DNA from: Rhodothermus sp.
GTDB lineage: Bacteria > Bacteroidota > Rhodothermia > Rhodothermales > Rhodothermaceae
Assembly (NCBI GenBank): GCA_030950375.1
Contig: JAUZRN010000008.1
Span: 1-41,639 of the forward strand
Reading direction: 5' to 3'
DNA: 41,639 nucleotides
Shown: positions 32,202 through 41,129 of the stretch, in pieces
How positions within the stretch are numbered: position 1 is the first letter of the stretch
Layout of the letters: every line of letters begins with the position of its first letter
Program-made: the position numbers and the translations under genes
The notes under the pieces: generated by a model
What the model was told of the DNA's origin: nothing
What the model saw: only the letters and a program-made list of their open reading frames with translations
Databases searched by the model: none

Positions 32202-33044
32202 TCAAGTGCCCGGCACTGGGACCGAAGCCCCGTACTTCAACGCATGTACAAACCGCCGCACAGCCGCCAACCGCTTGTCCGGTGCACACGTCGGATCATC
32301 CCAGAGTTGTTCAACCAGTCGGATCAGGGCCGACCCTACGATGAAACCGTCGGTGTGCCGGCTCAACCGCCGAGCGTCTTCGTGCGATTTGATTCCAAAG
32401 CCCACCAGGAGTGGATTGTGCCGGACCTGACGACGTGCCCGCTGCAGGTAAGCTTCAACCGCCGCATGATCAGGCAGTTGGCTTCCGGTCAGCCCTGTCA
32501 CCGAAACGGCATAAACGAAACCGGTAGCACGCTCGTCGATAGCGCGGATACGCGCGTCCGGCGTGTTCGGAGCGATCAGGTAAACCATAGCCAGACCGGC
32601 CGCCCGGGCAGCTTCGGCCAGCGGCGCGCTCTCTTCCAACGGCAGGTCAGCCAGGATCAATCCGTCCACACCAGACGCAGCGGCATCGCGGCAGAAGGCT
32701 CGATAGCCGTAGCGATAAATCGGATTGACGTAGCCCATAAGCAGTAGCGGCGTCTGGCTCCGCGCCCGGAACCATTCGGCCGTACGGAACGCATCGGTCA
32801 GCCGCACGCCATGACGGAGCGCCCGCTCGCTGGCCCGCTGGATCGGCACCCCTTCGGCCAGCGGATCGCTGAAAGGCATGCCCAGTTCGATGAAATCCGC
32901 GCCGGCGGCGTCGATGACCTCCAATAGCGGACGTGTGCTTGTCGGATCCGGGAAACCATTTGTTAGAAACAGTCCCATGGCCTTTTCGCCACGAGCCCGA
33001 AGCGTCTCGAACAGCAATTGCAGGCGATCGATCATACGATACAT
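32202..33044 (-). CDS. trpA: Tryptophan synthase alpha subunit
   Basis: TrpA splits indole-3-glycerol phosphate and channels indole to TrpB. Motifs in the 280-residue protein: [41 protein letters not shown] (catalytic Glu and Asp region), [49 protein letters not shown] and LLVGFGIKS. The start is uncertain: ATG 33044 (MYRMIDRL), 33035 (MIDRL) or 33074; the last has the best Shine-Dalgarno-like stretch but adds a non-conserved tail. The gap from trpB is about 60 nt. Confidence 0.97.
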
Positions 33045-33105
33045 GAACTTTGCGGGGCCATTCCGGCCTCCCATTTTTTCTCTTCCGATCAACGGGTGAA
33101 CCCGA

Positions 33106-34314
33106 TTACAGATACTGTGCGATCGTACCCATGTCTTTGTCGCCGCGGCCGGACAGATTGACTACCACGACAGCATCTGGTCCCAGCTCACGTGCCAGAC
33201 GCGGCAGGAAGGCGATGGCATGGGCCGTCTCCAGCGCCGGGATGATGCCTTCGGTGCGGGCCAGCAGGCGCACGCCTTCCAGCGCCTCTTCGTCGGTGGC
33301 CGTCACGTAGGTAACACGGCCCAGATCTTTCAAATAGGCATGTTCAGGTCCCACGCCGGGATAATCCAGTCCGGCCGAGATGGAGTGAGCCAGTTGCACC
33401 TGCCCGTCGTCGTCCTGCAGCAGGTAGCTCATCGTTCCGTGCAGGATGCCGGGTCGTCCGCAGGTCAACGTGGCCGCATGCCGCCGGTTGAGTCCTTCGC
33501 CAGCTGCTTCGACGCCGTACATGCGCACGTGCTGGTCGTTGAGAAACGGGAAAAAGAGCCCCAGGGCATTCGAGCCACCGCCCACGCAGGCCACCAATGC
33601 GTCGGGCGTTTCCCGGCCAAGGTGCGCGGCCAGCTGCTGCCGCACCTCATCGCCGATCACGCGCTGAAAATCACGTACGAGCATCGGGTACGGATGGGGC
33701 CCCACCACCGAACCGATCAGATAGAACGTATTATGGACGTTTGTCACCCAGTCGCGAATAGCCTCGTTCGTCGCGTCTTTGAGCGTGCGGCTACCGCTTT
33801 CGACGGGCCGCACCTCGGCCCCCAGCAGCTGCATTCGCAGTACGTTCAGGTGCTGACGCTCCACATCCTCGGCTCCCATGTACACGACGCACTGCATACC
33901 GAAACGGGCGCAGACCGTCGCCGTCGCCACGCCATGTTGCCCGGCGCCTGTCTCGGCAATAATGCGCGTTTTCCCCATGCGCCGAGCCAGCAAGATCTGG
34001 CCGACCGTGTTGTTGATCTTGTGCGCGCCTGTATGGCAGAGATCTTCGCGCTTCAGATAGACCTGCATGCCGCCCAGCGCCTCGCTGAGTCGCGGCGCAA
34101 AGGTCAGCGGCGTCGGCCGCCCCACGTATTCCTGAAGCAACGCGTGGTACTCCGTCCAGAAGTTTGCATCCTGTCGCGCTTCGGCATAAGCGGCCTTCAA
34201 CGCCTCCAGGGCCGGCACCAGCGTCTCCGGCACAAAGGCCCCTCCGTATGGTCCGAAGTGGCCGGCAGCATCCGGCGCGTCGTAAGTCAACAGATCGGTC
34301 TCAGCGGTCGGCAT
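33106..34314 (-). CDS. trpB: Tryptophan synthase beta subunit
   Basis: TrpB condenses indole with serine using PLP. The 402-residue protein has [39 protein letters not shown] (PLP Lys in HKINN), [54 protein letters not shown] and [18 protein letters not shown]. It is the standard TrpB1 type. The start MPTAETDLL (ATG 34314) was chosen by family alignment; the frame is open farther upstream. It follows a 198-nt stretch after trpF that contains a small ORF. Confidence 0.98.
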
Positions 34315-34391
34315 GGTGCTTCCAAGATTCAGCGCCTGTACAGAACCAGCCTTCATCCACAACAATGACACCGGCCACGGTGTCGACGGCA

Positions 34392-34499
34392 TTATGCCTT
34401 CGAGGACACCTCCCCCTCCTGTTGAGGGCATGCCGCTTCCCGCAGGAAGTCCGGCCCCTGAGTAAGGAGCTCTGGGATTTTTCCTGCCCGCACACTCAT
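34392..34499 (-). CDS. Small ORF of 35 residues between trpF and trpB
   Basis: An ATG at 34499, 13 nt after the trpF stop and 3 nt after an AAGGAG Shine-Dalgarno, opens 35 codons ([20 protein letters not shown], then [15 protein letters not shown]) and stops at TAA 34392. It has no Trp codon, no signal peptide and no motif I know. It could be a genuine small protein, a device to keep ribosomes on the mRNA between trpF and trpB, or a remnant. Expression is unproven. Confidence 0.4.
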
Positions 34500-34512
34500 G
34501 GTCTCCTTGGTC

Positions 34513-35169
34513 CTACTCCATCGCTTCCGCTTCGAGCTGTCTGCGGAGCGCATGAAACACGTCAAAGAAGCGGGCCAGTTTGTCGAAATCCTTTTTGCCC
34601 GGTGCGGCTTCGACACTGCTTGAGAGATCCACGCCCAGCGGCCGCATGGTGCGGACAGCCTCCTCCAGGTTATGCGCACCGATCCCCCCCGCCAGCAAAA
34701 TCGGATAGTCGGCCGAAAGCTCGCGGGCCAGCCGCCAGTTGAATGACTCACCCGTCCCACCCCACAGGTTCGTTTTGTGCGTGTCGAGCAGGAAGTAGGT
34801 GACCCACGGGCAGTAGGGTTCCATGAGCGCGCGCAGTTGCTCGGCCGAAGCATCGTGCAGCACAGGAATAGCTTTAATGATCGGAGCGTCGATCTCGGCG
34901 CACCACTCGGGCGGCTCCGTGCCATGCAGTTGCACCATGGTAAAGCCCACCGTTTCGATGGCCCGGTTCACTTCGTCGGGGGAGGCATTCACGAACACCC
35001 CCACCTTCTCGGGGCCGTGGATCCATTCGATGATTTCCCGGGCCACTTCGGAGGCCACGTAGCGTGGACTTTCCGGGTACTGAATGAACCCCAGAAAGTC
35101 CGCGCCGGCCGCTGCACAGTAGCGCGCATCTTCCAGATTGGTAATGCCGCAGATTTTAACCTTCAGCAT
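34513..35169 (-). CDS. trpF: Phosphoribosylanthranilate isomerase
   Basis: TrpF performs the Amadori rearrangement of phosphoribosylanthranilate. The 218-residue protein begins LKVKICGITNLEDARYCAAA (catalytic Cys7 region), then GADFLGFIQYPESPRYV, VGVFVNASPDEVNRA, MVQLHGTEPPEWC, LLDTHKTNLWGGTGESFNW (catalytic Asp), PILLAGGIGAHNLEEAV and GVDLSSSVEAAPGKKD. The start ATG 35169 is fixed by the family N-terminus, 13 nt after trpC. It is a separate gene rather than a trpC-trpF fusion. Confidence 0.97.
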   Translation of the reverse strand: MLKVKICGITNLEDARYCAAAGADFLGFIQYPESPRYVASEVAREIIEWIHGPEKVGVFVNASPDEVNRAIETVGFTMVQLHGTEPPEWCAEIDAPIIKAIPVLHDASAEQLRALMEPYCPWVTYFLLDTHKTNLWGGTGESFNWRLARELSADYPILLAGGIGAHNLEEAVRTMRPLGVDLSSSVEAAPGKKDFDKLARFFDVFHALRRQLEAEAME

Positions 35170-35182
35170 AGCCCTTACCCTC

Positions 35183-36004
35183 TTAAACTGCCAGGCGTAG
35201 CGCGTCGGACGCCGTAAGCCGTTGGTGCACTTCCTGGCGTAGTCGCTCAAGCGCCTCACCTGGATGGGACGCCCGCATCAACGCTTCCCCAATCAGCACG
35301 GCATCCACACCGTGGCGACGTAGATAGGCGAGCTCATTGGCGGTACGCAGGCCGCTTTCGGCTACCCGAACAATCCGGTCGGGCACCTGTCGTAGCACCT
35401 GCACTGCCCGCCTGAGATCCACCTCGAACGTGTGCAGGTCGCGGTTGTTAACACCCAGGATCTCAATCTTATCCAGATCGAGTCGGTCCAGCTCCGCCTC
35501 TGTGTGCACCTCTACCAGGCACGACAGACCCAGCTCGGTAGCCTGGGCATACAGTTCGTGCAACTGGACCGGATCGAGGAGTGTCGCAATCAGCAGCACC
35601 GCATCGGCTCCGTAGGCCCGCGCTTCAATGAGCTGATAGGGATCCAGAATGAAGTCTTTCCGGAGCAGTGGCAGATCGACAGTGCGCCGTGCCATCTCCA
35701 GGTGCTCCAGGCTCCCCTGAAAGTAATCAGGCTCAGTAAGCACCGAGATGGCCTGCGCGCCATGCCATTTATACTGGCGCGCCAGCTCCGGCACGTTGAA
35801 TTCCCGTCGGATAATGCCCTTGGAAGGGGACGCTTTTTTGATTTCGGCGATGATGGCCAGTTCGTTGGTACGCAGGGCTGGTGCCAGCGGCAGAGTTGGA
35901 CTCTGATAATGGGTACGCTCTTCCAGCAACGAGACAGGAACGCGTTGCTTGCGCTTTTCCAGGCGTTCGCGTACGGTCTGGACAATCTGTTCTAAGAGGG
36001 TCAT
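35183..36004 (-). CDS. trpC: Indole-3-glycerol phosphate synthase
   Basis: TrpC closes the indole ring with loss of CO2. The 273-residue protein shows IIAEIKKASPSKGIIRREF (substrate Lys), ISVLTEPDYFQGSLEHLEM, LPLLRKDFILDPYQLIEARA (catalytic Lys), ADAVLLIATLL, LVEVHTEAELDRL, ILGVNNRDLHTFEVDL and VAESGLRTANEL. ATG 36004 (MTLLEQIVQ) has an upstream GGAG and matches family starts; the open frame to 36148 runs through the intercistronic hairpin and is rejected. Confidence 0.98.
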   Translation of the reverse strand: MTLLEQIVQTVRERLEKRKQRVPVSLLEERTHYQSPTLPLAPALRTNELAIIAEIKKASPSKGIIRREFNVPELARQYKWHGAQAISVLTEPDYFQGSLEHLEMARRTVDLPLLRKDFILDPYQLIEARAYGADAVLLIATLLDPVQLHELYAQATELGLSCLVEVHTEAELDRLDLDKIEILGVNNRDLHTFEVDLRRAVQVLRQVPDRIVRVAESGLRTANELAYLRRHGVDAVLIGEALMRASHPGEALERLRQEVHQRLTASDALRLAV

Positions 36005-36080
36005 GGCGGTTTTCTCCTGGCTACGGTGAACGATTGCAAACGACGAGGTCACAAAACACATAGATCGTATCCTAACCTGC

Positions 36081-36113
36081 GCTTTACTGGCCCCGGCGGG
36101 GCCAGTAGTAAGC
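36081..36113 (-). promoter_or_regulatory. Intercistronic hairpin between trpD and trpC
   Basis: ACTGGCCCC and GGGGCCAGT (36086-36094 with 36098-36106) form a perfect 9-bp stem with a 3-nt loop, extendable at its base (GCTT/AAGC). It lies in the only long gap of the trp operon (200 nt). No T-tract follows on the operon strand, so it is more likely an RNA-stability or processing element than a terminator. Confidence 0.5.
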
Positions 36114-36204
36114 CCATCGTCCCCTAAATCGCTCATCGTAGCCGGCACGTCGCGCTACCGGATCTGAAACCAGGTCATACCTGAGCACTGCTTGTTTCAT
36201 GGTG

Positions 36205-37254
36205 CTATGCAGCGGGTTGACGCGTGACTTCATGGGCTATCTGGTTCGACACGGCAATCAGGCGTTCCAGTCGTTCCAGCGCCGCGCCGCTGTCAATGCT
36301 CTCGCGGGCGGCTTCCAGACACGCATGCAGATCGTCTCCAAAGCGGCCGCTCACATAAAGCGCATAGGTTGCATTAAGCAGCACCACGTCGCGGTGCGGA
36401 CCGCGTACGCCTTCGAGCACCTGGCGCAACAGCCGGGCATTGGTCCGGGCATCACCTCCGCGCAGCTGTTCTTTCGACACCCGTTTCAGTCCCAGCGCCT
36501 CCGGCTCAACACGCCCCGTACGGGGCGCCTCGTCCCCCCTCTGGTATTCGTAGGTGGTTGTGGGGGCAGCAAGCGAGAGCTCATCGAGCCCATCTTCGGC
36601 ATGGACGGCCACCACGTGCTCGGCGTCCAGGCGGGCCAGAATGGCCACCATCGTGGCGGCTACGTCGGACCGAAACGCGCCCACAAGCTGACGACGCACG
36701 CCGGCCGGATTGCAGAGGGGCCCCAGAATGTTGAAAAACGTACGCACCCCCAGCGTCCGGCGTATGGGCATTACATGCCGCATGGCCGGATGAAAACGCG
36801 GCGCGAAGGCGAAGGCGATGCCTACGTCTTCCAGACAACGCTCGACTCCTTCCGGCCCCAGGTCGATAGCCACACCCAACGCCTCCAGTACGTCGGCCGA
36901 ACCAGCCCGAGACGATACCGAACGGTTGCCATGCTTGACCACGGTCACCCCGGCTCCTGCACAGACAAAGGCAGCAGTCGTCGAGATGTTGAACGTGCCC
37001 GAGCGATCGCCTCCCGTACCGCACAGGTCGATTGCGTGTGGATCATCGACGCGCACGGGCCGGGCATACTGGCGCATCACCCGCGTAAAGCCTACCAGCT
37101 CGTCAAGGGTCTCACCGCGTGCCCGCAATCCCATCAGTAGCCCTGCGATTTGCTCAGGCGCTGCTTCGCCGCGCATCATTAGATGCATGGCCGCTTCAGC
37201 CTCTTCCTGGGTCAACGTGCGGCCTTCAGCCAGTGCCGTCAGGTAGGGTTGCAT
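36205..37254 (-). CDS. trpD: Anthranilate phosphoribosyltransferase
   Basis: TrpD transfers the phosphoribosyl group of PRPP to anthranilate. The 349-residue protein has LTQEEAEAAMHLMMRGEA, LLMGLRARGETLDELVGF, the PRPP loop IDLCGTGGDRSGTFNIST, VVKHGNRSVSSRAGSADVLE, FAFAPRFHPAMRHVMPIRR and TFFNILGPLCNPAG, all diagnostic. It starts 6 nt after the trpG stop. Confidence 0.98.
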   Translation of the reverse strand: MQPYLTALAEGRTLTQEEAEAAMHLMMRGEAAPEQIAGLLMGLRARGETLDELVGFTRVMRQYARPVRVDDPHAIDLCGTGGDRSGTFNISTTAAFVCAGAGVTVVKHGNRSVSSRAGSADVLEALGVAIDLGPEGVERCLEDVGIAFAFAPRFHPAMRHVMPIRRTLGVRTFFNILGPLCNPAGVRRQLVGAFRSDVAATMVAILARLDAEHVVAVHAEDGLDELSLAAPTTTYEYQRGDEAPRTGRVEPEALGLKRVSKEQLRGGDARTNARLLRQVLEGVRGPHRDVVLLNATYALYVSGRFGDDLHACLEAARESIDSGAALERLERLIAVSNQIAHEVTRQPAA

Positions 37255-37260
37255 GACGCT

Positions 37261-37875
37261 TTATCGTTGCATTTGCGGGATCGACGTTGCACGCCTATGA
37301 TGCCATGCCTGCACCTGGCGCAACCAGTTGGCGATCAGACGTGGTCCTTCGGTCGTGAGCACGCTCTCCGGATGAAACTGCACGCCTTCGATCGGATAGG
37401 TGCGATGGCGCAGCCCCATGATCACCTCGTCTTCGGTCCAGGCCGTGATCTCCAGCACGTCGGGCAACGTGTCGCGGTCCACCACCAGGGAGTGGTAGCG
37501 CGTAGCGGTGAACCCCTGGGCCGCCCCCTCAAACAGCCCGGTTCCTGTGTGGAAAATGCGGCTGGTCTTGCCATGCATAAGCGAAGGAGCATGCACCACA
37601 CGCCCACCGAAGACTTCTCCGATCGCCTGATGTCCCAGGCATACGCCCAGAATTGGCGTGGTCGGCCCCAGCTCGGCAATGACTGCTTCCGTGATGCCCG
37701 CTTCGGCCGGCCGACCGGGTCCCGGCGAGATCAGAATCGCCTCGGGTTGCATGGCCCGCACTTCGTCGAGCGTGACCGCGTCGTTGCGCACCACGCACAG
37801 GTCCTGCGTGTGCCGCCCCAGTAGATGCACCAGGTTGTAGGTAAACGAATCGTAGTTGTCGATCACCAGAATCAT
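37261..37875 (-). CDS. trpG: Anthranilate synthase component II (glutamine amidotransferase)
   Basis: TrpG supplies ammonia from glutamine to TrpE. The 204-residue class I amidotransferase has MILVIDNYDSFTYNLVHLLG, ILISPGPGRPAEAGI, the nucleophile motif PILGVCLGHQAIGEVFGG (Cys) and IEGVQFHPESVLT (His, Glu). The ATG overlaps the trpS stop in an ATGA (37872-37875). It could also serve folate synthesis (PabA role), but the operon argues for Trp. Confidence 0.97.
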   Translation of the reverse strand: MILVIDNYDSFTYNLVHLLGRHTQDLCVVRNDAVTLDEVRAMQPEAILISPGPGRPAEAGITEAVIAELGPTTPILGVCLGHQAIGEVFGGRVVHAPSLMHGKTSRIFHTGTGLFEGAAQGFTATRYHSLVVDRDTLPDVLEITAWTEDEVIMGLRHRTYPIEGVQFHPESVLTTEGPRLIANWLRQVQAWHHRRATSIPQMQR

Positions 37876-38936
37876 GACGCCTCCGGTCGATAGGTGGCGT
37901 AGTTGAGCCCGACCAGATCCCGCACCTGCTCCATGATCTCCTGCGCACGTTGGCGTCCCTTGCGTCCGCCCTCGCGCAACACATCCATCACATAGTCCGG
38001 ATGCTTCAACAGCTCCCGCCGCCGCTCTCGGGCTTCGGCAAAGTGTTCGTCGATGAGCCGGATCAGCTCTTTTTTCGCATCACCATAGCCGTAACCGCCT
38101 CGCCGGTAAGCTTCGGCAATGCGATTGCGCGTCTCCTCGTCGGCAAACAGCTTGATCAGCGCAAATACGTTACAACGATCTGGATCTTTGGGGGCTTCCA
38201 GCGGCGTCGAGTCGGTTACGATCGACATCACCTTTTTGCGCAGCGTCTTGCCTTCGTCAAAGATGCCGATCGTGTTGCCGTAGCTTTTGGACATTTTGCG
38301 CCCATCGATGCCGGGCACCACGGCTACTTCTTCCCGAATAAGCGGTTCGGGCACAGGAAACAGAGGTCGATCCGGCGGGCAGAAGGTCCGATTGAAACGT
38401 TGCGCGATGTCCCGGCAAATTTCGATGTTCTGCTTCTGATCGGCACCGACGGGTACCAGCGTGCCTCCGTAAATCAGGATGTCGGCCGCCTGGAGTACGG
38501 GATAGTTGAACAAGCCGGCGTTGGCCGACAGTCCCTGCGCCACCTTGTCCTTGTAGGCCACGCCTTTTTCGAGCGTGGAGACCGGCACCAGGTTGTAAAA
38601 AATCCAGGCCAGCTCAGTCACCTCTGGCACATCGCTCTGCACAAAGAGCGCCGCTTTTTCGGGGTCAAAGCCCAGCGCCAGATAGGTGACGGCCGCCTCG
38701 AAAGTGTAGCGCCGCAGCGCCTCGCGGTCGTGAATCGTGGTCAGCGCATGGTAATTGACAATGAAGAAGTACGATTCGTACTGCTCATGCAATTCCAGGT
38801 GCTGCCGGATTGCGCCAAAATAGTTACCCAGGTGCAGCTCGCCGGAGGGTTGAATGCCCGAGACCACAATGGTCCGCATAGCTACGCTGTTTGGCGGCAC
38901 CGTTTGTGGGGATGTTGCGGTTGCACTTGCACTCAT
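37872..38936 (-). CDS. trpS: Tryptophanyl-tRNA synthetase
   Basis: TrpRS charges tRNA-Trp. The 354-residue class I enzyme shows VVSGIQPSGELHLGNYFGAI (HIGH-like), FIVNYHALTT, LFVQSDVPEVTELAWIF, NAGLFNYPVLQAADILIYG, LVPVGADQKQNIEICRDIA, and PGIDGRKMSKSYGNT (KMSKS). The start at 38936 forms an ATGA overlap with the upstream gene; MRTIVVSG (38879) is the conserved core start. Its place inside the trp operon means the enzyme that sets the charged tRNA-Trp level is controlled by an attenuator that reads that level. Confidence 0.97.
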   Translation of the reverse strand: MSASATATSPQTVPPNSVAMRTIVVSGIQPSGELHLGNYFGAIRQHLELHEQYESYFFIVNYHALTTIHDREALRRYTFEAAVTYLALGFDPEKAALFVQSDVPEVTELAWIFYNLVPVSTLEKGVAYKDKVAQGLSANAGLFNYPVLQAADILIYGGTLVPVGADQKQNIEICRDIAQRFNRTFCPPDRPLFPVPEPLIREEVAVVPGIDGRKMSKSYGNTIGIFDEGKTLRKKVMSIVTDSTPLEAPKDPDRCNVFALIKLFADEETRNRIAEAYRRGGYGYGDAKKELIRLIDEHFAEARERRRELLKHPDYVMDVLREGGRKGRQRAQEIMEQVRDLVGLNYATYRPEAS

Positions 38937-39424
38937 GACGCCGTTGCGCTGGCTGGTTTCGGATAACGTCGGGCCACTTTCTGCAAGTAGCGCAAACGTT
39001 CTTCACTGTGCTGACGCACCAGGTTGAGCGTAGCTTTGGTACGGATCTGATGGTTCAGCTTAAGCTCTTCTGCGACCAGCTGAAGAAAGTGCTGTTCGGC
39101 CTGCAGCAACCGGTGGATCATTTCAGCCGGGTCCGTGCCCAAGTTGAAGTCGTCCGGTTCCATGTCCACCCCACTGTAGGCTGTCCCTCCCGCGCTGAAG
39201 ACCACCTCGGCCAGCTTGCCAACGTCTACACGGGCAATTTTCTGGAACTGCTCCAGCCGATCGGCCAACTCCGCATTGTCGATCGTACGAATTACGTAAT
39301 CATGTTGATGATTGAGCGCAATATGCTCGCGGATGAGTGGATTGATCCGCTCGACCGTCTCCTGACGGGAGAGCGACTTTCCAATGCCACCTTTGTTGAA
39401 GATCAGTTCTTTCAGCGAAGCCAT
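38933..39424 (-). CDS. Uncharacterised helical protein in the trp operon (orfX)
   Basis: I do not recognise a named family. The 163-residue protein (start MASLKELIFNKG, ATG 39424) looks mostly helical. It has NPLIREHIALNHQHDYVIRT, a central segment KLAEVVFSAGGTAYSGVDME with DDFNLG, then MIHRLLQAEQHFLQLVAEEL and HQIRTKATLNLVRQHSEERL. The His/Glu spacing in paired helices is faintly ferritin-like, but that is only an impression. It starts 19 nt after trpE and its stop overlaps the trpS start (ATGA), so it is made with TrpE and TrpRS. No signal peptide is present. Confidence 0.75.
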   Translation of the reverse strand: MASLKELIFNKGGIGKSLSRQETVERINPLIREHIALNHQHDYVIRTIDNAELADRLEQFQKIARVDVGKLAEVVFSAGGTAYSGVDMEPDDFNLGTDPAEMIHRLLQAEQHFLQLVAEELKLNHQIRTKATLNLVRQHSEERLRYLQKVARRYPKPASATAS

Positions 39425-39443
39425 GGTCGGTTCAGGGTTGGTT

Positions 39444-40934
39444 TTACAGCAGGCCGGACGCGGCGACGCGCATGGCCTCGACCAGCGCCCGGGCTTTGTT
39501 AACGGTTTCCTCGTATTCGCGTTCGGGGTCACTATCGGCTACGATGCCTGCCCCGGCCTGCACATAGATGGTGCCGTTACGGACCACCATGGTACGGATG
39601 GCAATGCAGGTGTCCAGGTTGCCTGAAAAATCCATATAGCCCACAGCCCCGGCATAGATACCCCGACGCGTGGGTTCCAGCTCATCGATAATCTCCATGG
39701 CCCGTACCTTGGGAGCCCCGCTGACCGTGCCGGCCGGGAAGCATGCTGCCAGCGCATCGAGTGCATCATAACGTGGATCGAGCTCACCGGACACCAGCGA
39801 GACCAGATGCATCACGTGCGAATAGTGCACCACAAAAGCGAAACGCTCGACCTGGACCGTACCGAAGCGGCAGACACGCCCCAGATCATTTCGCCCCAGA
39901 TCGACCAGCATCAGGTGTTCGGCCTGCTCCTTCGGATCAGCCTCCAGCTCAGCCTCCAGCGCTCGGTCCTCTTCGGGCGTGCGTCCTCGGGGTCGTGTGC
40001 CGGCGATAGGCAACACTTCGGCCCGCCCCTGCTCGACACGCACCAGTACTTCGGGCGACGAACCGATCAGCGCCAACTCACCGAAATCGATGTAGAACAG
40101 GTACGGCGACGGATTGACCTGGCGCAGCGCCCGGTACAGATTGAAGCGATCGCCCGCATACGGCGTGGCGAACCGCTGCGAAAGCACCACCTGGAAGATA
40201 TCCCCTTCGTAAATATAGGCTTTGGCGCGGCAGACCGCCTCGCAGAAGGCCTGGCGGGTGAAGTTCGAGGCAAGCGGTGTCTCGGGTAGCGCGACCGGTT
40301 CAGGCACTTCCAGCGATGCCTGTGCCAGGGTGTTGGTCAGCCCATCCAACCGGGTAACGGCTTCGTCGTAGGCGATCCGTAGATCGGTGTCGGGCGCCAC
40401 AAAGACACCGGCCATGAGCACAAGCTGGTGCCGCACGTGGTCAAAAGCTACAACGGTGTCGTAGAAGTTCCAGCAGGCCTCAGGCAATCCCAGATCATCA
40501 GGCGGTGAAGAGGGCAGGTGTTCCAGCTGCCGGATCATGTCGTAACCCAGGTACCCCACAGCCCCCCCGGTAAAGCGCGGAAGCTCAGACACCTGCACCG
40601 GATGATACCGGCGGAGCAGCCGCCGCATGGTGTCGAAAAAGCCCTCGGTCGCCCTCTCAGGCTCCGCATCCGACCGTCTGAGCACCACCTGTCCGTCGCG
40701 TACCTCTACGGTCAGGTATGGCCGCACGCCCAGGAACGAATAGCGTCCCAGCTTTTCGCCGCCCTCGACGCTTTCCAGCAGGAAGGCACCGGGTTCATGC
40801 CCGCGCAGCTTCAGAAAGGCCGACACCGGCGTGAGCAGATCAGCCCCCAGCCGTCGAAAGACCGGCACGAACAGGTGGGTGTGGCCGGCGGCCCGGTGCG
40901 CGTCGATCAACCTGTGGAACGCCTCGAACGTCAT
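39444..40934 (-). CDS. trpE: Anthranilate synthase component I
   Basis: TrpE makes anthranilate from chorismate with ammonia from TrpG. The 496-residue protein carries the Trp-feedback motif AFLLESVEGGEKLGRYSFLG, AVGYLGYDMIR, YEGDIFQVVLSQRF, NPSPYLFYIDFGELALIGSS, LPIAGTRPRGRTPEED, MLVDLGRNDLGRV, HYSHVMHLVS and CFPAGTVSGAPKVRAMEIID. ATG 40934 (MTFEAFHRL) lies 11 nt after the T-tract of the attenuator terminator; the open frame from 41048 runs through the attenuator and is not the start. It is the first structural gene of the operon. Confidence 0.98.
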   Translation of the reverse strand: MTFEAFHRLIDAHRAAGHTHLFVPVFRRLGADLLTPVSAFLKLRGHEPGAFLLESVEGGEKLGRYSFLGVRPYLTVEVRDGQVVLRRSDAEPERATEGFFDTMRRLLRRYHPVQVSELPRFTGGAVGYLGYDMIRQLEHLPSSPPDDLGLPEACWNFYDTVVAFDHVRHQLVLMAGVFVAPDTDLRIAYDEAVTRLDGLTNTLAQASLEVPEPVALPETPLASNFTRQAFCEAVCRAKAYIYEGDIFQVVLSQRFATPYAGDRFNLYRALRQVNPSPYLFYIDFGELALIGSSPEVLVRVEQGRAEVLPIAGTRPRGRTPEEDRALEAELEADPKEQAEHLMLVDLGRNDLGRVCRFGTVQVERFAFVVHYSHVMHLVSLVSGELDPRYDALDALAACFPAGTVSGAPKVRAMEIIDELEPTRRGIYAGAVGYMDFSGNLDTCIAIRTMVVRNGTIYVQAGAGIVADSDPEREYEETVNKARALVEAMRVAASGLL

Positions 40935-40945
40935 AGGACCTAACG

Positions 40946-40976
40946 AAAAAAGCCCACCGCCAAGCTCGCGGTGGGC
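40946..40976 (-). terminator. trp attenuator terminator (segments 3:4)
   Basis: On the minus strand GCCCACCGC (40976-40968) pairs perfectly with GCGGTGGGC (40960-40952) around a 7-nt loop, followed directly by TTTTTT (40951-40946). It sits after the leader peptide stop and 11 nt before the trpE start codon: a textbook intrinsic terminator in an attenuator position. Confidence 0.92.
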
Positions 40977-41005
40977 CGTCTTGTCTTCCGTAACAGGATG
41001 CACCA

Positions 41006-41089
41006 TCAGGCACGTGCGCGGCCCACCGCGGCGGGGGTAAACCACCACCAGCCGTAATAGTGGGCGCTATGATACGCAACGTGCCGCAT
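41006..41089 (-). CDS. trpL: trp operon leader peptide
   Basis: An 84-nt ORF from ATG 41089 to TGA 41006 encodes 27 residues: MRHVAYHSAHYYG, three consecutive Trp (residues 14-16, TGG TGG TGG), then FTPAAVGRARA. Such a Trp run in a short ORF just upstream of a terminator hairpin and trpE is the hallmark of a trp leader peptide. No Shine-Dalgarno is seen; the predicted promoter would place the transcript start only a few bases before the ATG, so it may be translated leaderless. The peptide itself has no further expected function. Confidence 0.9.
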   Translation of the reverse strand: MRHVAYHSAHYYGWWWFTPAAVGRARA

Positions 41090-41097
41090 CGTGGCGC

Positions 41098-41129
41098 TAA
41101 AGATACAACGCAGATGCCCTGTTCCACAA
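41098..41129 (-). promoter_or_regulatory. trp operon promoter
   Basis: On the minus strand TTGTGG (41129-41124) and TATCTTTA (41105-41098) are separated so that TTG and TA are 21 nt apart, the same spacing as in the tRNA-tuf promoter (TTG 782-780, TA from 758). Transcription should begin near 41091, next to the trpL start codon. Confidence 0.6.

Follow-up and report, generated by a model that had tools for sequence, protein, structure and literature searches.

A predicted ribosome-mediated trp attenuator ahead of trpE in Rhodothermus and related bacteria

The trp operon in the window (the whole 41,639-nt stretch of Rhodothermus sp. contig JAUZRN010000008.1 that was analysed) lies behind what is very probably a ribosome-mediated transcription attenuator, which would make the operon, trpS included, respond to charged tRNA-Trp. 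Four hallmarks of a leader-peptide attenuator are found together here: an open reading frame (ORF) with a Trp run before trpE, an intrinsic terminator, a compensated antiterminator that shares a segment with it, and a geometry in which a stall at the Trp codons would free segment 2 and a ribosome at the stop codon would cover it. From these parts, their conservation, their compensatory changes and their spacing we infer the transcription start, the translation of the leader, the stalling of the ribosome and the response to tryptophan. An earlier note on this DNA had proposed the mechanism, and it is strongly supported by the anatomy, the conservation and a three-way compensatory change.

Leader architecture

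The attenuator region runs from 41129 to 40946 on the minus strand and comprises a predicted promoter, a 27-codon leader ORF, an antiterminator segment and an intrinsic terminator ending in T6. The ATG of trpE is at 40934, 11 nt past the T6 tract. The earlier note had described this layout, with three TGG codons in the leader, and all of its checkable details hold. The features are as follows.

41127–41129, minus strand: −33/−35-type element TTG (TTGTGG), conserved in the genus and held at 21 nt from TATCTT across a diverging spacer
41100–41105, minus strand: −10/−7-type element TATCTT (TATCTTTA), invariant in the genus and separated by 10 nt from the leader ATG
41092–41093, minus strand: predicted transcription start, 3–4 nt upstream of the leader ATG, placed from the position of the −10-type element
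41006–41089, minus strand: trp leader peptide ORF, 27 codons plus TGA (stop codon 41008–41006), reading MRHVAYHSAHYYGWWWFTPAAVGRARA*; counterparts in 88/118 class loci
41060–41067, minus strand: segment 1 (GCGCCCAC), able to pair with segment 2; pairing invariant in the genus, with no covariation
41042–41050, minus strand: three tandem Trp codons (TGG ×3), TGGTGGTGG; WWW or WW kept in relatives
41019–41030, minus strand: segment 2 (CGCGGTGGGCCG), 5′ arm of the antiterminator, within the leader ORF
40967–40977, minus strand: segment 3 (GGCCCACCGCG), common to antiterminator and terminator
40951–40961, minus strand: segment 4 (GGCGGTGGGCT), 3′ arm of the terminator
40946–40951, minus strand: T6 tract of the intrinsic terminator

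The terminator (40977–40951, minus strand) has a stem of 10 bp followed by T6. Segment 3 has GCCCACCGC, and the 9-mer GCGGTGGGC occurs in segments 2 and 4 alike, in agreement with the identity noted previously. When the leader was folded, as had been suggested, the 151-nt fold was better than those of dinucleotide shuffles (z = −2.87; 2/200 shuffles as good) and the minimum free energy (MFE) structure contained the 1:2 pairing.

In the proposed mechanism, RNA polymerase would start 3–4 nt ahead of the leader ATG and a ribosome would load on the near-leaderless 5′ end and follow the polymerase while translating the leader peptide. With charged tRNA-Trp in short supply, this ribosome would stall at the three Trp codons and leave segment 2 free, so that segments 2 and 3 would pair, no terminator would form and trpE would be transcribed. 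If Trp-tRNA were plentiful, the ribosome would reach the stop codon and cover segment 2, in which case segments 3 and 4 would pair and transcription would end in the T6 tract before trpE.

The spacing of the parts is consistent with this scheme. The 8-base core of segment 2 in the window starts 12 nt past the last Trp codon and ahead of the stop codon; at this distance from the Trp run and within the ORF, segment 2 would be covered by a ribosome that has reached the stop codon. Across 101 relatives, segment 2 starts a median of 13 nt past the last Trp codon and stops a median of 12 nt short of the stop codon's end. We also folded the leader with the nucleotides beneath the ribosome masked. With the ribosome stalled at any of the three Trp codons the remainder folded into the antiterminator (−34.3 kcal/mol), and with the ribosome at the stop codon into the terminator (−23.3 kcal/mol); the outcomes for the stall at the first Trp codon and for the stop-codon position were unchanged at 65 and 75 °C. 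Without translation, the terminator formed alongside the 1:2 hairpin. For the fully transcribed leader in the same model, the antiterminator was still the minimum in the window. The terminator was the minimum in the four relatives tried, and the outcome in those would thus depend on the order of synthesis.

The operon downstream

The gene order after the attenuator is trpE-X-trpS-G-D-C-F-B-A, then a gene with a DUF4837 domain, all on the same strand, which is followed by a frame that by sequence look is hisG-like.

39447–40934, minus strand: trpE, anthranilate synthase component I, first structural gene (Pfam PF04715 and PF00425)
38933–39532, minus strand: protein X, between trpE and trpS, with no Pfam match
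37872–38936, minus strand: class I tRNA synthetase (W/Y family), taken as trpS (Pfam PF00579)
32202–37875, minus strand: trpG, trpD, trpC, trpF, trpB and trpA in series

Since the trpS candidate lies within the trp operon, a Trp sensor before trpE would also govern the gene for TrpRS.

Conservation across trpE loci

We gathered trpE loci from the genus, the class and the phylum and extracted their upstream regions, in which a locus was scored as positive by one scripted definition: it had to carry a short ORF containing WW or W.W and, between this ORF and trpE, a hairpin with its T run. Leader and terminator were found together in 104 of the 148 real upstream regions (88/118 in the class and 16/30 in other classes), compared with 3/2960 dinucleotide shuffles and 0/148 opposite strands; these counts are of related genomes and not of independent events, and 'class' and 'order' as used here are kinship labels. 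The leader starts were picked by rule, and a start may in some cases be one or two codons out. A WWW run was present in 66 real leaders versus none in shuffles, and a W-run leader is also present in 15 of 25 additional loci drawn from other families of the phylum. The alignment of orthologous trpE upstream regions that the earlier note had called for bears out both the Trp codon run and the compensatory pairing as conserved.

Within the genus, the leader, the Trp run, the segments and the terminator are kept in all six members (window included), while the spacer from the stop codon to segment 3 diverges. The nearest named trpE relative found is a metagenome-assembled genome (MAG) of the Balneolaceae, and a named Balneolaceae contig has a WWW leader. 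Outside Bacteroidota, a Calditrichota MAG (L033, contig JAADJD010000059.1) carries a WWWW leader, MNGFLFKYTPKKSWWWWTLTRSGWRW, and a terminator, ACCCACTCC..GGAGTGGGT plus T6.

There are several examples of divergence. In family f3, 14/16 loci lack a W-run leader by the script; two of these, L114 and L120, retain the hairpins with their Trp codons separated (MQRALTHASWDLRRGYWRRLHPAVGP and MHLWPTHSWCYPLNGAVGRFEF, respectively), and most of the other f3 loci have lost the element. In family f14, three loci (L123, L133 and L140) have a single-Trp leader frame about 150–250 nt upstream of trpE (MVKHYISSVVNWQSLLTT in L123), followed by a hairpin and a T run; this may be a degenerate attenuator or one that works with a single Trp codon. 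In a number of loci of families f13 and f15 (L108, L113, L115, L121, L138, L147, L153 and others) there is no attenuator and trpE directly follows a gene whose C-terminus appears by eye to be like that of a mechanosensitive channel; the leader of these loci may have been replaced through operon capture.

As for the genome of the window itself, TGGTGGTGG occurs in 116 places, which is not clearly above the reversed pattern (57/59 versus 38/63). A lead to a his attenuator, obtained with a His-run pattern, was rejected as its single match sits in an apparent long coding frame.

Pairings and covariation

The variable columns of the 3:4 helix take GC, AT, TA, CG and GU pairs and also show covariation with segment 2; column 4 of the core shows GC, AT, TA and CG pairs in both terminator and antiterminator. 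As the best segment 2 was chosen in each locus, the same choice was repeated on shuffled spacers as a control. Across the class, none of 200 such re-optimised shuffles matched as well for segments 2 and 3 and none of 200 reached the mutual information of the segment columns. When each family is represented by a single locus, the match score remains above that of 200/200 shuffles, but the mutual information is reached by 19/200. In family f12 and in the other classes the antiterminator is not above chance, as judged on the 8-column core.

Within the genus, one member alters segments 2, 3 and 4 together, from GCGG/CCGC/GCGG to GCAG/CTGC/GCAG, with all pairs kept. Taken on their own, the six genus sequences give covariation of one pair per helix, which shuffles reach in 84–89 of 500, so that one such change alone falls short of significance. 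Three pairings, 1:2, 2:3 and 3:4, had been claimed from the window. Those of 2:3 and 3:4 are kept by compensatory change. The 1:2 pairing is in the MFE structure and invariant in the genus. It lacks covariation, and in most relatives it does no better than shuffles; as a conserved feature it has no support beyond the invariance.

The absence of covariation for 1:2 would suit another reading, in which the region holds a constitutive or leaky 5′ terminator and the W-rich ORF is not a sensor. We consider this very unlikely, because the Trp codons, the antiterminator and the terminator are conserved together at fixed geometry across the class and because segment 2 has kept its complementarity to segment 3, a constraint that a simple terminator would not impose. 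Still less probable is an arrest peptide like TnaC, which would respond to free tryptophan in the ribosome and not to uncharged tRNA-Trp. TnaC also has a short Trp-containing leader ORF, but this is a resemblance only: the Trp codons here are in tandem with surrounding residues that vary between families, the antiterminator is directly downstream, and the genes are biosynthetic and not degradative, all of which fit tRNA sensing. The remaining candidate, a T-box or riboswitch-like RNA that would sense Trp directly by metabolite or tRNA binding, draws on the general knowledge that such elements regulate trp genes in Firmicutes and is the least probable of all, given that the window has no Rfam riboswitch or T-box match and that the conserved part is a Trp-codon ORF with alternating hairpins, the spacer being little conserved.

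Promoter and 5′ end of the leader message

The very short predicted 5′ untranslated region (UTR) of the attenuator is a point absent from the earlier note. The predicted promoter is not reported by a default σ70 scan of the window. Among the attenuator-positive loci, however, a TAnnTT motif ends 6–10 nt before the leader ATG in 62/103 (about 60%), versus about four expected from shuffles. The usual distance from a −10 box to the transcription start is 6–7 nt, which would place the start 0–4 nt before the leader ATG in these loci (3–4 nt in the window). With a start so close to the ATG, the leader message is probably near-leaderless. A terminated RNA that starts at the trpL ATG has been described in S. 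meliloti (PMC7298713).

We extend this to a broader proposal, to which we give about equal chances of proving right or wrong: that trp leaders of the class usually start a few nucleotides from the AUG, that attenuation would be driven by the first ribosome, loading on the near-leaderless 5′ end as the RNA emerges, with no Shine–Dalgarno sequence, and that leader-peptide attenuation in much of Bacteroidota and neighbouring groups would descend from this form. In two genomes of family f49 a tRNA-Pro (cgg) gene (L256:3103–3177 and L259:3117–3191) ends about 20–40 nt upstream of the ATG of a WWW leader, and at this distance the leader may be co-transcribed with the tRNA.

Relation to known systems

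The suggestion that attenuation might be new in this lineage largely fails and is true only in a weak sense. A 2010 paper already lists the Bacteroid-trp motif among the cis-regulatory RNAs of Bacteroidetes (Weinberg et al., 2010; PMC2864571), and RF01692 is the Rfam entry for the Bacteroidete tryptophan peptide leader RNA. Its covariance model (cut-off 49 bits) matches four trpE leaders of our survey, similar in design to that of the window, at 56–76 bits, and it is on these matches that our label 'flavobacterial' for them rests. Because the same kind of switch has already been predicted in other Bacteroidota, the element in the window extends a known system. A paper of 2004 by Vitreschak is also said to mention predicted attenuators in Bacteroidetes/Chlorobi. 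According to a survey of 2010, Proteobacteria and Actinobacteria were the only groups with demonstrated leader peptide systems until the Firmicutes case that the survey itself presented (PMC2965389). We found no description of attenuation in Rhodothermus or Salinibacter in the collection of open-access papers searched.

The window element does not match RF01692 even at E values of up to 10, nor does it match RF00513 (cut-off 41 bits), and membership of either family was rejected on score. The best scores among ten class members tried were 30.1 bits for RF01692 and 29.2 bits (E = 0.017) for RF00513, both below threshold. The mechanism is thus known in the phylum, and the class appears to lie outside the curated Rfam models.

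The window element resembles RF01692 in being from the same phylum by kinship and in having, upstream of trpE, a short WWW leader ORF and a terminator, but its leader and segments diverge in sequence. It shares with the E. coli-type trp leader (RF00513) a tandem-Trp leader peptide, alternating 2:3 and 3:4 hairpins and a terminator before trpE; in contrast, its predicted 5′ UTR of 3–4 nt has no room for a Shine–Dalgarno sequence and its promoter is different. The closest parallel for the 5′ end is trpL/rnTrpL of Sinorhizobium meliloti (PMC7298713), with a Trp-codon leader peptide, attenuation at trpE and a transcript that starts at the leader ATG (predicted at 0–4 nt here). This is an alphaproteobacterium with a 14-codon leader and another operon, in which the leaderless start is established, whereas that of the window is predicted.

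What the present analysis adds is that the attenuator is general in this class, with further cases in other parts of the phylum and on a Calditrichota contig, and that a −10 box lies 6–10 nt before the leader ATG in about 60% of cases. The first of these places trp attenuation firmly in the class of this genome and in Balneolaceae, past the reach of existing Rfam models. The predicted near-leaderless leaders would offer a naturally replicated case for how transcription–translation coupling starts in bacteria that rely little on Shine–Dalgarno sequences.
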